A stretch of 47,323 bases of DNA from an uncultured bacterium (GTDB lineage Bacteria; Cyanobacteriota; Vampirovibrionia; Gastranaerophilales; Gastranaerophilaceae), in NCBI GenBank assembly GCA_947428835.1, contig CANENE010000014.1:1-47323 (forward strand), read 5' to 3'. Both the position numbers and the translations under genes were made by a program. The notes beneath the pieces were generated by a model that worked only from the letters and a program-made list of their open reading frames with translations, was not told where the DNA came from and ran no database searches. Below, in pieces: positions 138 through 42,320 of this stretch. Position 1 is the first letter of the stretch; every line of letters begins with the position of its first letter.

Positions 138-1745
138 CTAACTTTCTTCGCTTTCGACTTGCTTTAGCCCATCATATACACAGCGTACCGAATATGCCCA
201 GCCTCCGGTATTGCCGGCATATGTAGCTGTGGCATTTAATACATTTTGTGGATTGCCAAGGCCTAAGACATAATTTCCTTCGCCATATATATTTGCTGTG
301 TGGCAATAATCATAATCTGCTCCGGGGCAGCTGTATCTGCCGTAATAACACTGTACATTATTTCCGACAGTGCTTGCATTTGGGTTATAGGCGCAAAACT
401 GCAGGCCTTTTGAGCCCATATTGCTTGTTAAAATTGGTGTTCCTTTGAGGTCATAATTATTTATGGTAAGTGCCCATCCGTCAAGTTCTTCTTTGGTGGG
501 AAGTCTCCAGTATCCTTTATATTTCCCGTTGGGAGCCCAGCTTTCGCAGCTTATTTTCCCCGCTTTATGCTGACATGCCGCCCTGTTACAACCGCTATAA
601 GTGCTGTCTCCATTTGATCCGCCTGAACAGGCATCTGAAGTTCTGCCACCTGTCCAACAGCAATTTTGAGCACCGCATTTGCCACTTGATCCCCTGATTA
701 CTCCTTGCCCAAGTCCGGGGCCGCCTGAATCTCCTACATTGTATTTTGTGACACATACATTATGGAAACCATCGTTATATTTTTTTTCTATAAACATAAG
801 ATAAGGCGCGATTTTATCGCAATCCTCCTGACTTTGCGGACCTTTTTGTTCATCTTTTTCTTCACCTTGATTATTATCTAAATTAATATTTTCTATGATA
901 CTATCCAAAACACATCTGACTGACTGTGCATAATATTGGGGATTGCCCATTACACCAAGTTCACCATAGTTGCCATTGTTGGCCCACGTATCAAATCGTA
1001 TATAGGCTTCGCCCGAGTAATTGCCGTATGGTGTTAAATCTAATCCCCATAGAGTACAGGGGATACACCTTTTGTTTGTATCTGCATCCTTGCAGCCTCC
1101 CGTATTTCCTTGTTCACAGGTATTTATACCGGGGCTTGAATATCTGCTGCATAGCTGCAGACCTTCGCCTCCTTTTGAAACAGTAAGCTCTTGAAAATTG
1201 CTTTTCCAGCCGTTGAATTCTGCAGTTGTTGGAAGTCTCCAGTCTCCAACTTTGCTTCCTTCGGGTGCGTAATTTGCACAAGAAGCGTTTGCTGCTTTCC
1301 ATTGACAGACTGTTCTATTGCACCCTGAATAGTCTCCTTCGCCATCTGTACAGTTTGGTGAAGTAGCGCCTGTAAAACAGCAATATCCTCTTTTGTTGCT
1401 TGGACAATCTTGCCCGACCGCCACAGGCACAGTACTTTGAGACAAAGGAAGCCCGTTATCTCCCATATTATATTTCGTGACACAAATATTTTTAATTCCA
1501 TCGTTTAATGTTTTTGGAATAAAAATGGCATTAAATTTCTCGCAATCTTCCTTATTTGGTTGTCTTGTAATTATTCCAACTGTTTTATTGCTGCTATCAA
1601 AGCTTCCAACTGTAATATCGCTTGCTTTCAATTTTTTTGTGATTATTGGAGCAAAGGCGCTAATCAAAAGTGAAATTACAATGAGGCTTATAAGAAGTTC
1701 AATAAGTGAAAATGCAAGGCGCATTTTTCCGATACTTTTTTTCAT
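138..1745 (-). CDS. Prepilin-like surface protein with two Cys-rich WRLP/RCVYDG repeats
   Basis: A 535-residue protein. Residues 1-11 are a basic prepilin leader, followed by FSLIELLISLIVISLLISAF, a type IV pilin/pseudopilin N-terminal helix with Phe+1 and Glu+5. The residue before the cleavage site is Ala, where Gly is usual. After the anchor come two tandem units, at about residues 66-282 and 309-525. Each contains DC(E/D)K..., NxCVTKYN(M/V)GD, CC(F/W)TG, YSGCNR(T/A)(V/A)CQ, WRLPT and SVRCV(L/Y)D, with about ten cysteines. The WRLPT...RCV pattern resembles the DUF1566/Lcl and FISUMP domains, which have a C-type-lectin-like fold; this assignment is by eye. Expected location is outside the cytoplasmic membrane, with disulfides. 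A putative AGGAG ribosome site lies 12 nt before the ATG. The gene is paralogous to the one at 39249 and divergent from an XRE regulator gene. Ligand and role (adhesion, pilus tip or secretion) are unknown. Confidence 0.85.
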   Translation of the reverse strand: MKKSIGKMRLAFSLIELLISLIVISLLISAFAPIITKKLKASDITVGSFDSSNKTVGIITRQPNKEDCEKFNAIFIPKTLNDGIKNICVTKYNMGDNGLPLSQSTVPVAVGQDCPSNKRGYCCFTGATSPNCTDGEGDYSGCNRTVCQWKAANASCANYAPEGSKVGDWRLPTTAEFNGWKSNFQELTVSKGGEGLQLCSRYSSPGINTCEQGNTGGCKDADTNKRCIPCTLWGLDLTPYGNYSGEAYIRFDTWANNGNYGELGVMGNPQYYAQSVRCVLDSIIENINLDNNQGEEKDEQKGPQSQEDCDKIAPYLMFIEKKYNDGFHNVCVTKYNVGDSGGPGLGQGVIRGSSGKCGAQNCCWTGGRTSDACSGGSNGDSTYSGCNRAACQHKAGKISCESWAPNGKYKGYWRLPTKEELDGWALTINNYDLKGTPILTSNMGSKGLQFCAYNPNASTVGNNVQCYYGRYSCPGADYDYCHTANIYGEGNYVLGLGNPQNVLNATATYAGNTGGWAYSVRCVYDGLKQVESEES

Positions 1746-1925: not shown

Positions 1926-2165
1926 ATGAAAACAAAAGTCAGGCTGAAAAGAAAAATTTTAAAGTCTTTGGGGCTTAAAATTAAAGAAATCAGGCTTCAG
2001 AAAGGGATTTCTCAAGAGAAGCTTGCTTTTCAAGTCGGAGTGGACAGAACCTATATAGGTGCAATTGAGCAGGGCACAAGAAGCCCTTCGATTTATTGCC
2101 TTTTTGTAATTGCAGAAAAATTGGGTATCCAATTAAAAGATACCCTTGATTTCACAATAGAATAA
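1926..2165 (+). CDS. Small XRE-family helix-turn-helix regulator
   Basis: 79 residues, almost entirely one HTH_3/XRE domain: IKEIRLQKGISQEKLAFQVGVDRTYIGAIEQGTRSPSIYCLFVIAEKLGI matches the five-helix Cro/C1-type fold, with recognition-helix residues around DRTYIGAIEQG. No effector domain is visible, so it is probably a simple DNA-binding repressor. No Shine-Dalgarno is seen before the ATG. The gene is divergent from the two-repeat prepilin and a dyad lies in its own 5' region, suggesting control of itself and possibly the prepilin. It ends 4 bp before the convergent metY stop codon. Confidence 0.85.
   Translation: MKTKVRLKRKILKSLGLKIKEIRLQKGISQEKLAFQVGVDRTYIGAIEQGTRSPSIYCLFVIAEKLGIQLKDTLDFTIE
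2123..2145 (-). terminator. Possible metY terminator embedded in the XRE gene
   Basis: GGGTATC / GATACCC form a 7-bp stem. Read on the minus strand, the stem is followed by AATTTTT. It sits about 25 bp past the metY stop codon, inside the 3' end of the convergent XRE gene. No other terminator is visible in the 4-bp gap between the two genes. Confidence 0.45.
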
Positions 2166-38725: not shown

Positions 38726-39025
38726 TTATTTTGCAATTAAGTTCAATAACATTTCTTTGACCTTTATAGCCTCTTCTTTTGTAAAATTAATGCTAAGTTC
38801 ATAGTGCTTAGAATCACATGTCAAAAACATTTCTCCGCTACCTGAAAGAAGCCAGTTTATATTAACCTGCAGCTTAGTCAAAAGTGTTTTTAAAAAATTA
38901 TCAGGAAAGTTTTTTGTCTTATATTCGTAACCTCTATAAGTATTTAGTTCAACGTTCAGTATTTCTGCCATTTTTTGTTGACTATAGCCTAATTTTAATC
39001 TAATTTCTTTAAGTCGTTCTTTCAC
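38726..39025 (-). CDS. XRE-family regulator divergent from the giant prepilin
   Basis: HTH_3 domain at the N-terminus: KERLKEIRLKLGYSQQKMAEILNVELNTYRGYEYKTKNFPDNFLKTLLTKLQVNINWLLSG. A ~40-residue C-terminal segment (FTKEEAIKVKEMLLNLI) probably dimerises. The GTG at 39025 is chosen because AGGAG lies just upstream (4 nt). The ATG at 39040 and TTG at 39049 have no ribosome site and run into an operator-like dyad. From the GTG the protein has 99 residues; the longest reading has 107. Two dyads upstream, one within the prepilin promoter, point to control of both genes. Not closely similar to the XRE at 1926. Confidence 0.8.
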   Translation of the reverse strand: MKERLKEIRLKLGYSQQKMAEILNVELNTYRGYEYKTKNFPDNFLKTLLTKLQVNINWLLSGSGEMFLTCDSKHYELSINFTKEEAIKVKEMLLNLIAK

Positions 39026-39041
39026 GGAGCTCCTCGACATA

Positions 39042-39058
39042 TTATCCAAAATAGATAA
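39042..39058. promoter_or_regulatory. Operator-like dyad 1 (TTATCC-AAAAT-AGATAA)
   Basis: A 17-bp dyad with 6-bp arms (one mismatch) immediately upstream of the XRE gene. It is nearly the same as the dyad at 39074-39090, 32 bp away, about three helical turns. Confidence 0.6.
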
Positions 39059-39248: not shown

Positions 39249-42200
39249 ATGAAAAAACAAACGGGGCTAAAAAGCCTATTTTGGCTTACTTTTGCTATGC
39301 CTTTGCGCATAATGCAACATAAAAAAACTTTGAGAGGGTTTTCACTTATAGAAATCCTGATAAGTTTAATCATCATCTCTCTTCTTATCGCGGCTTTTAC
39401 TCCAATTATCACAAAGAAGCTTAAAGCATCAGATATTTCAATAGGTTCTTTTGGAAGCGGAAGTAACATTAATATGACATTAGAAAGACAAGTCACAAAA
39501 GAAGATTGCGATAAGTATGATGCAATATTTATCCCTGCTGCAATGAATGGAGGAGTAAGGAATTTATGCGTCACAAAATACAACATGGGAGACAATGACC
39601 TTCCTCTTGCAAAAAGTGTAAAAAAACTCGATGCAGCAAACAGCTGCAGCGAAAAAGATAAAGGAAACTGCTGCTGGGGTGGGACTACTTCAACTGCTTG
39701 CGGTAATTCGGGAAATGGAGACAGCGATTATTCGGGATGCAACAGGACAGTCTGTCAGTTTCAAGCAGCAAATGCAAGTTGTGCCGCTTACGCTCCAAAT
39801 GATGAAAATGAAGGAAGTTGGAGACTTCCAAGTCAGGAAGAAATAAATAACTGGGCAGGTAACCTTGCTAATTTAAATAATAATAAAGGAAAAGAAGGTC
39901 TACAGTTGTGTGATTATTCTTCATCAAACAATGGAGCTGTTCAATGCTATATAAATCAAGGTAAATGTCAAACAGGAACAAGTAGTTCTGATTGTTTGCC
40001 AAACAGAATTTGGTCTATGACAATGCTTTTGGCAGATACTCATTTCAGTGACGGTATTGATGGAGGTGCATTTAATGGTGGAGGCAATATAGCAGATGCT
40101 GCGGGCTTGAGTGCAAGATGTGTTCTTGATAGCATAGCTGTTGATGTCTCTGAATTGCCAAACGGTGGCGGAATAAAAGATCCGACCACTGACCCTTTTT
40201 ATGGAGAACCCAAAGACCAAGCCGATTGTGATAAGATTGTTGCAATATTCATAGATAAAAAAATGTCAGGAGCAAACAGAAACATCTGTGTTTCTAAATA
40301 CAACGTAGGTGATGCAGGGCCTGACGGCTTTGGCCCTCCTGTTCCTGATAGTTTTAAACAATATATCATGAATGTATCACAAAGTTGTACGTATGCAGGT
40401 TCTTGTTGTTGGAAGGGTAAAACAACTTCAACTTGCGGCATTACGGGTAACGCAGGAGCAAATTACAGTGGCTGCAACAGGACTGTTTGTCAATATAACG
40501 CAGCAAATGCTGCCTGCAGACAATATAATGCCTTTGGTGCAACCGCAGTTGGAGCCTGGAGGTTGCCAACAAGCGCTGAGTTGAGTGTGTGGTGGCAGCA
40601 TATGAATGTTTTAAATAATAATAAAGGTGCTAATGGACTTCAATTTTGTACCCATGGCTCTGTTGCAGGATATGTACAGTGTTCTTATGTAGCAAGTTGC
40701 TTCGGCAGTGGTTCTTATGATGCTTACGGCTCAAGCACTAATTATTGTATGCCATCTTTGAATTGGACAAGCACTCCAACTGTCGTATATAAAACCGAAG
40801 GCGGTGCAACCGCTACAAACTTGTATGCTGTTGCAAGTGCAAGATGTGTTTATGATGGTATTACAAAGGCCAATAACTATGAAGAAGATTTAAGTGATTA
40901 CGATGATAGTAACGCTCCAAAAGATGAGCCAAAATCTCAAGCTGATTGTGACAAGCTGACAGCTATTTTCATTCATAAAAAGTACGCAGGTGGTGGCAGG
41001 AATATTTGCATAAGCAAATATAATGTAGGCGATAGCGGCCCAAGTGGAAAAGGTCCGACTCTTCCTTCTGCCTATAGTGGTTACATAGTAAATGCAGGTC
41101 AAAGTTGTCCTTATTCAGGATTTTGCTGCTGGAGAGGAGCTACGTCATCACCTTGCAGTATGACAGGCAATGCGGGAGCAGATTATTCAGGCTGTAACAG
41201 GACTGTTTGTCAATTTAATGCGGCCAATGAAGCTTGCCGCAGTTGGACAGCAAATGGCAAGACCCCTGCAGGCGCCTGGAGACTTCCATCACAAAATGAA
41301 TTTAACTCAATGTTTAGGTATTTGGATATTATAAATAATAACAGAGGCAAGGATGGTCTGCAGCTTTGCACCCATGGAACAAGTGCGTCCGGTTCCGTTC
41401 CTTGTAGTTATCTTCAATCTTGTATAGGTAGTGGCAGTTATGATGCTTACGGCTCAAGCACTAATTATTGTATGCCATCTTTGAATTGGACAAGCACTCC
41501 AACTGTCGTATATAAAACCGAAGGCGGTGCAACCGCTACAAACTTGTATGCTGTTGCGAGCGCAAGATGTGTATACGATGGTGCTACTAAAGCAAATAAC
41601 TATGAAGAAGATTTAAGTAACTATGATGATTCCAACGCTCCGACTGATGAACCTAAAAGTCAGGCAGATTGCGATAAATTGACAGCGATTTTTGTTCACA
41701 AAAAATACGCAGGAAGCACAAGAAATATTTGTATAAGCAAATATAATGTAGGCGATAGCGGTCCAAGCGGCTCAGGTCCTGTAATTACTGCTGAATATCA
41801 ACAATATATTAAAGGTGTTGGTCAAAGCTGTAATAAGTCAGGTAGTTGCTGCTGGAGAGGAGCTACGTCATCACCTTGCAGTATGACAGGCAACGCGGGA
41901 GCAGATTATTCAGGCTGCAACAGGACTGTTTGTCAATATAACGCAGCAAATGCTGCCTGTCGCAGCTGGACAGCAAATGGCAAAACCCCTGCCGGATACT
42001 GGAGACTTCCTTTGGAAACCGAACTTAATTCAATGTTTAATTACTTAAACATTATTAACAATAATAGGGGTAAAGACGGTTTACAACTTTGTAGTCATGG
42101 AATATCCACTATAGGTACTACTCCTTGCAGCTATGTAGCAAGTTGCTTCGGCAGTGGTTCTTATAGTGCTTACGGCTCAAGCACTAATTATTGTATGCCA

Positions 42201-42320
42201 TCTTTGAATTGGACAAGCACTCCAACTGTCGTATATAAAACCGAAGGCGGTGCAACCGCTACAAACTTGTATGCTGTTGCGAGCGCAAGATGCGTGTATG
42301 ACGGCTCAAAAACAGAATAA
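39249..42320 (+). CDS. Giant prepilin-like surface protein with four Cys-rich WRLP/RCVYDG repeats
   Basis: 1023 residues. A 30-residue leader ends LRG and is followed by FSLIEILISLIIISLLIAAFTPIITKKLKAS: Gly-1, Phe+1, Glu+5, a canonical prepilin-peptidase site. Four tandem units follow at about residues 83-295, 321-537, 560-778 and 801-1018. Each has ADCDK...IFI, NICVSKYNVGD, SCCW(K/R)G, YSGCNRTVCQ(Y/F)NAAN, WRLP, and GLQ(L/F)C, ending in ARCVYDG. The last three also share a Gly/Ser/Thr-rich tail (YGSSTNYCMPSLNWTSTP). Units are linked by acidic 25-residue hinges (NNYEEDLSDYDDSNAPKDEP). AAGGA precedes the ATG. The signature resembles DUF1566/FISUMP lectin-like domains; role unknown, probably binding at the cell surface. 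Paralogous to 138-1745. Confidence 0.85.
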   Translation: MKKQTGLKSLFWLTFAMPLRIMQHKKTLRGFSLIEILISLIIISLLIAAFTPIITKKLKASDISIGSFGSGSNINMTLERQVTKEDCDKYDAIFIPAAMNGGVRNLCVTKYNMGDNDLPLAKSVKKLDAANSCSEKDKGNCCWGGTTSTACGNSGNGDSDYSGCNRTVCQFQAANASCAAYAPNDENEGSWRLPSQEEINNWAGNLANLNNNKGKEGLQLCDYSSSNNGAVQCYINQGKCQTGTSSSDCLPNRIWSMTMLLADTHFSDGIDGGAFNGGGNIADAAGLSARCVLDSIAVDVSELPNGGGIKDPTTDPFYGEPKDQADCDKIVAIFIDKKMSGANRNICVSKYNVGDAGPDGFGPPVPDSFKQYIMNVSQSCTYAGSCCWKGKTTSTCGITGNAGANYSGCNRTVCQYNAANAACRQYNAFGATAVGAWRLPTSAELSVWWQHMNVLNNNKGANGLQFCTHGSVAGYVQCSYVASCFGSGSYDAYGSSTNYCMPSLNWTSTPTVVYKTEGGATATNLYAVASARCVYDGITKANNYEEDLSDYDDSNAPKDEPKSQADCDKLTAIFIHKKYAGGGRNICISKYNVGDSGPSGKGPTLPSAYSGYIVNAGQSCPYSGFCCWRGATSSPCSMTGNAGADYSGCNRTVCQFNAANEACRSWTANGKTPAGAWRLPSQNEFNSMFRYLDIINNNRGKDGLQLCTHGTSASGSVPCSYLQSCIGSGSYDAYGSSTNYCMPSLNWTSTPTVVYKTEGGATATNLYAVASARCVYDGATKANNYEEDLSNYDDSNAPTDEPKSQADCDKLTAIFVHKKYAGSTRNICISKYNVGDSGPSGSGPVITAEYQQYIKGVGQSCNKSGSCCWRGATSSPCSMTGNAGADYSGCNRTVCQYNAANAACRSWTANGKTPAGYWRLPLETELNSMFNYLNIINNNRGKDGLQLCSHGISTIGTTPCSYVASCFGSGSYSAYGSSTNYCMPSLNWTSTPTVVYKTEGGATATNLYAVASARCVYDGSKTE
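40722..40834 (+). repeat. 113-bp exact repeat, copy in unit 2
   Basis: Identical over 113 bp to 41445-41557 and 42168-42280, including third codon positions. It encodes the C-terminal part of the repeat unit (from Y-G-S-S-T-N to the A-V-A before RCVYDG). Confidence 0.95.
41445..41557 (+). repeat. 113-bp exact repeat, copy in unit 3
   Basis: Second copy of the 113-bp block, 723 bp after the first. Downstream it also shares GCGAGCGCAAGATG with unit 4 but not unit 2. Confidence 0.95.
42168..42280 (+). repeat. 113-bp exact repeat, copy in unit 4
   Basis: Third copy, again 723 bp downstream. On its 5' side 33 bp (42132-42164) are identical to unit 2 (40686-40718) but not to unit 3, so copies are mosaics. 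Confidence 0.95.

Follow-up and report, generated by a model that had tools for sequence, protein, structure and literature searches.

Within-gene homogenisation acts mainly on the lectin-like half of repeated units in giant prepilins of a Gastranaerophilales genome

Background

How can tandem units of a single gene agree at all silent sites across more than 110 bp of one half, and stand near silent saturation in the other? This question is raised by a giant prepilin gene on a stretch of DNA of 47,323 nucleotides (the window), which makes up the entire contig C14 of a 1.8-Mb, 24-contig Gastranaerophilales metagenome-assembled genome (MAG; G000). Here, we compare the units of this gene with one another and with those of its numerous paralogues, and weigh which process might have homogenised one part of the unit only.

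Results

A giant prepilin with four lectin-like units

The window gene (Table 1) has the N-terminal motif G-F-[ST]-L-x-E and the hydrophobic helix of type IV prepilins, and its residues 29-49 are matched by PF07963 (24.4 bits, cut-off 21.2) as well as by TIGR02532 (20.3 bits, cut-off 16.3). Lcl_C (PF07603) matches in four stretches, with 53.4 bits vs a gathering score of 34.9. Furthermore, the genome encodes machinery for prepilin processing and assembly, with one match to Peptidase_A24 and four above cut-off to T2SSE (T4P-type ATPases). From these features we infer a very large minor-pilin-like adhesin, in which a type IV prepilin N-terminus precedes four lectin-like units, and giant prepilins of this kind would both bind a ligand and be assembled into pili. 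No RNA families were found near the window gene, and a sequence search for solved-structure relatives of its protein returned none.

Table 1. Coordinates of the features discussed (window positions, unless a locus of another contig is given).
Feature	Position	Strand	Remarks
Xre-type HTH gene (HTH_19/HTH_3), divergent from the window prepilin	38726..39049	-	one of about 26 such partners of paralogues
Giant prepilin gene with four Lcl_C / C-type-lectin-like units	39249..42320	+	single intact ORF of 1,023 aa
Class-III signal and pilin hydrophobic helix	39333..39395	+	GFSLIE at 39336-39353; Pfam N_methyl, residues 29-49
Unit 1	39504..40130	+	separate clade in front and back trees; not part of the homogenisation
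Unit 2	40224..40856	+	position-specific front to about 40634; gene-specific back 40635-40856
Unit 3	40944..41579	+	front to about 41354; back 41355-41579
Unit 4	41667..42302	+	front to about 42077; back 42078-42302
114-bp block, unit 2 copy (DAYGSSTNYCMPSLNWTSTPTVVYKTEGGATATNLYAVA)	40721..40834	+	identical across units 2-4
Block copy in unit 3	41444..41569	+	126 bp identical to unit 4; three-way identical part 41444-41557
Block copy in unit 4	42167..42292	+	126 bp identical to unit 3; three-way identical part 42167-42280
DGR-type reverse transcriptase, bAvd protein and adjoining prepilin with variable C-terminal end	L029 5183-6352, 6373-6804, 6955-8307 (G000 contig C3)	-	
Repeat at template position downstream of the reverse transcriptase	L029 4818-5030	-	

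An AlphaFold model of unit 3 (92 sequences) reached a pLDDT of 87 and a pTM of 0.87. Foldseek comparison of the unit model with the PDB gave no significant match (E above 1), and the VIA structural matches were mostly C-type-lectin folds (Mtd, rhodocetin, LLT1, PvdO; Z 4.7-6.4), so that the model lends modest support to such a fold. In the model, the homogenised block corresponds to residues 172-214, which form a loop of low confidence and the final strands. The ligand site of C-type lectins and of Mtd sits in the C-terminal loop/strand region.

Recent recombination among units 2-4

The initial annotation had described an exact 113-bp block shared by units 2, 3 and 4 at intervals of 723 bp; its spacing and exactness held, and its length became 114 bp on recomputation. 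Pairwise, the exact runs extend to 126 bp between units 3 and 4, 120 bp between units 2 and 3 (40715-40834 / 41438-41557), and 114 bp between units 2 and 4, for which 147 of the 149 positions over 40686-40834 match. Shorter exact links of 48 bp (41123/41846), 47 bp (40470/41913) and 33 bp (40686/42132) were likewise recovered at the starts originally given. When the codons of the unit alignments were shuffled 2,000 times, the observed run was not reached for any of the three unit pairs (0/2,000 for all three), the largest shuffled run being 59, which rules out chance. Synonymous difference amounts to 0.147 in each of the three pairs in the back of the unit (SGSY to end), vs 0.79, 0.52 and 0.67 in the front (start to WRLP), in agreement with the strong divergence of neighbouring unit parts already noted in the annotation; the few differences left among the backs are mostly synonymous (5 synonymous; dN 0.02-0.04). 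Since silent sites are identical over more than 110 bp while the fronts are near silent saturation, recent DNA exchange is needed, and the earlier proposal of gene conversion or unequal crossover is upheld by the homogenisation of silent sites, by tract ends that vary with the unit pair and by the extreme run test. Recent recombination, be it gene conversion or unequal exchange, is thus supported as having shaped units 2-4 of the window gene.

Whole-unit tandem duplication was considered as the sole cause and ruled out for unit 2 with respect to units 3 and 4, as the fronts stand at the synonymous divergence found between genes. Units 3 and 4 share tracts in their fronts as well in some genes, including the window gene (48 bp), so the boundary between front and back is not absolute.

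A large paralogous family with divergent regulators

DNA and ORF searches of the genome revealed about 34 open frames of this family, some of which are two halves of one gene split at contig ends; we estimate the totals at roughly 13 giants, with no more than four units each, and some 20 smaller genes. Paralogues carry 4, 3, 2 or 1 units (L016, for instance, is a three-unit gene). A second family member lies in the window itself (138-1745, minus strand), with two units and 535 aa, and has a divergent HTH match at 1980-2135 (plus strand). The genome contains 67 HTH_3 matches, and a divergent, individually different Xre-type gene is located just upstream of 26 of the 27 prepilin genes whose 5' flank is intact. 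The same layout recurs in other species, where 18 of 25 multi-unit relatives have it, and suggests that each prepilin gene probably has a private regulator. Named relatives are Candidatus Gastranaerophilales MAGs, and comparable families are present in other members of the genus; searches of genome contigs with the whole window protein, and of viral contigs, confirmed no occurrence of the same species elsewhere.

Fronts follow position and backs follow the gene

The units of the giants were aligned by codon, and units 2-4 of eight complete four-unit genes from this one MAG were compared. Nucleotide identity in the front block (alignment columns 0-51) was 0.773 between units at the same position of different genes, 0.671 between different positions of the same gene, and 0.652 where neither was shared; for the region from TAGGKT to WRLP the corresponding values were 0.755, 0.586 and 0.583. 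The back (GLQLC to RCVYD) gave 0.437, 0.709 and 0.435, and hence retains no memory of position. None of 2,000 label shuffles equalled the front or the back difference. In the front tree, the nearest neighbour of a unit was the same position in another gene in 18 of 24 cases and a unit of the same gene in six (6/24), and in the back tree it was a unit of the same gene in 23 of 24 and the same position in none (0/24). Unit 1 of the giants formed a clade of its own in both trees.

Exact matches of at least 40 bp, tallied between and within family genes, showed the same partition. Between genes, 70 matches fell into fronts or the N-terminus, and 61 of the 62 that could be classified joined units of equal number; six fell into backs, of which three were contig-end overlaps and two involved the suspect gene L010. 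Within genes, 16 matches were located in backs and six in fronts. Short between-gene matches in the fronts may reflect conservation, and those of 104-185 bp look like recent exchange. Within-gene homogenisation therefore acts mainly on the lectin-like half of units 2-4, and the front half keeps a positional identity common to the paralogues. As in concerted evolution, similarity within a locus, synonymous sites included, exceeds similarity between loci.

Long significant runs were found in the window gene, L011+4479, L014-1532 and L017, and those of L010 and L015 lie chiefly between units 3 and 4. The backs of L019 and L020, two of the eight genes, are alike in amino acids, their silent sites are near saturation (0.62-0.85), and there is little run signal. 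As this signal is uneven across genes, homogenisation appears to be episodic; in L019 and L020 it may be episodic or old, and selection alone could maintain the likeness.

Comparison with other species

Each species was covered by a single assembled genome. In G017, the three-unit gene L072 displays a back identity of 0.89 vs 0.60-0.70 in the front, with exact runs of up to 164 bp within and just before the back, and in G016, units 2 and 3 of L084 reach 0.82 in the back vs 0.55 in the front. The pattern was absent from the G021 genes, where back identity is below front identity, and many multi-unit genes of the relatives lack back homogenisation.

Discussion

A likely explanation is that conversion or unequal exchange inside the gene maintains a common specificity in units 2-4 of each adhesin, and that specificity differs from gene to gene. 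Sister units would convert one another in short tracts or exchange unequally, with similar flanks perhaps serving as a guide, and one lectin half would in this way spread over units 2-4. Exchange between genes, together with selection, would preserve front halves and a stalk that can be interchanged by position. Selection would favour one specificity per gene (multivalency). The resulting pili or pilus tips would form a set in which every member binds one gene-dependent ligand multivalently and is probably controlled by a divergent Xre-type regulator of its own. If a new specificity arose in one unit, a few events could carry it to the other units of the gene. More tentatively, and as a possibility to which we would not yet commit, the two halves of one unit might be inherited orthogonally, the scaffold half being exchanged between genes by position and the lectin half between positions within a gene; the genome would then hold a set of mono-specific multivalent pilus adhesins, each paired with a divergent regulator of its own, and copying across units 2-4 would fix a new specificity.

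Patchwork tracts that connect different unit pairs, a large paralogous family with tracts in common, and paralogues that differ in unit count might instead evoke antigenic or phase variation, either as in Neisseria or through the shuffling of units, in which segment exchange makes new variants within a population. However, exchange inside the gene makes its units alike and not different, and units that are alike within a gene and unlike between genes point to the opposite of within-gene diversification. Furthermore, the paralogues whose 5' end is intact each begin with a prepilin start and, nearly without exception, have a regulator of their own, and are thus not silent cassettes, and between-gene matches in backs are almost absent, most of them being contig-end overlaps or a possible misjoin; we regard this explanation as rather unlikely. 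That selection alone keeps the unit proteins of a gene alike, by the constraint of a common ligand and without recombination, would suit L019 and L020 with their nearly saturated synonymous sites, but several other genes are, like the window gene, identical at synonymous sites over 62-126 bp with significant run tests. For the window gene, selection alone is refuted by these identical synonymous sites, and as a general account we deem it highly improbable.

Collapsed or mis-joined short-read repeats could also simulate identity or unit order, and at least 11 of the 48 contig ends of the assembly appear inside the gene family (contigs C3, C4, C6, C9, C12, C17, C19 and C22). Several of these ends overlap by 51-55 bp, as would be expected from a k=55 assembly graph, and L010, at the end of C3, is a possible misjoin of two genes, its unit-2 back being that of backs on another contig and not of its own units 3-4. 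Nevertheless, the units of the window gene each have their own flanks and private differences within the back, ordinary reads or read pairs can bridge blocks of 114-126 bp, the same pattern occurs in L072 from a separately assembled genome of another species, and a misjoin would mix backs instead of equalising them. An artefact thus seems very unlikely as an explanation, and an assembly error in the window gene itself unlikely. The least credible alternative, to which we assign a nearly negligible probability, is a diversity-generating retroelement (DGR) that rewrites the lectin halves from one template and thereby homogenises the scaffold. It would draw on a DGR-type reverse transcriptase with bAvd that adjoins a prepilin/lectin gene in this genome, on variable ends that form a family among other prepilins, and on the position of Lcl_C/DUF1566 as the commonest Pfam domain among DGR targets (PMC6642488). 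Yet the template-like repeat near the reverse transcriptase matches the prepilins linked to that enzyme only and none of the giant units, those of the window gene included, for which no template repeat with adenine-specific differences was found; the differences among the window backs are mostly synonymous, the reverse of DGR adenine mutagenesis; and G017 carries a homogenised gene without this reverse transcriptase and bAvd family, although it has another, unclassified RVT_1 protein.

Several known systems resemble the intragenic homogenisation favoured here in part. Like Lcl_C/DUF1566 C-type-lectin proteins, to which DGR variable proteins and the Legionella collagen-like protein belong, the window gene has the Lcl_C profile over each unit and, in its model, a putative CLec-type fold with the Bordetella phage tropism determinant Mtd among its structural matches; unlike them, it has four units per prepilin and appears to vary by inter-unit recombination. 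With pilE/pilS antigenic variation in Neisseria it has in common a type IV prepilin and short recombination tracts in the exposed part. In contrast to that system, however, the family layout shows no silent, promoterless partial donor cassettes beside one expressed locus; the donors are sister units of the same gene, and the result is homogenisation within the gene. Recombination also exchanges sequence between repeats in mgpC of Mycoplasma genitalium (PMC2169797) and in the concerted evolution of tandem repeats in general, but here only half of the unit is homogenised and the other half is bound to its position across about a dozen paralogues. The FISUMP proteins (Fibrobacter succinogenes major paralogous domain, TIGR02145) similarly form a large paralogous family with a WRLP motif, and their profile matches weakly (E 0.0065); unlike them, the window gene scores 17.2 bits, below the cut-off of 41.65, and has the architecture of a multi-unit prepilin.

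If the favoured explanation is true, a repeat adhesin keeps the copies of its binding site identical while the paralogous family diversifies, and recombination runs in two ways in the two halves of one domain. Gut Gastranaerophilales would gain a large candidate adhesin repertoire with a one-gene-one-regulator layout. In addition, the prepilin family accounts for many of the breaks in the G000 assembly. Our literature search returned no paper that links Gastranaerophilales to pilin lectins or DGRs, and no open paper that joins "diversity-generating retroelement" with Melainabacteria or type IV pilin.

With regard to the retroelement locus itself, variable ends like that of the L029 prepilin are also present in prepilins on contigs C6, C10 and C17. 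The repeat downstream of the reverse transcriptase was rejected as a canonical DGR template, as it does not follow the adenine rule: mismatches are mostly on T for one partner (11-12 on T in comparison with the adjacent variable region) and involve mixed bases for others. This repeat resembles one more mutated copy, and the assembly may lack the true template. In G013, whose genome gave no match to RVT_1 or bAvd, L076-L081 are multi-unit prepilins with units that resemble DGR variable regions (VWSSTLYSSSSAY...).
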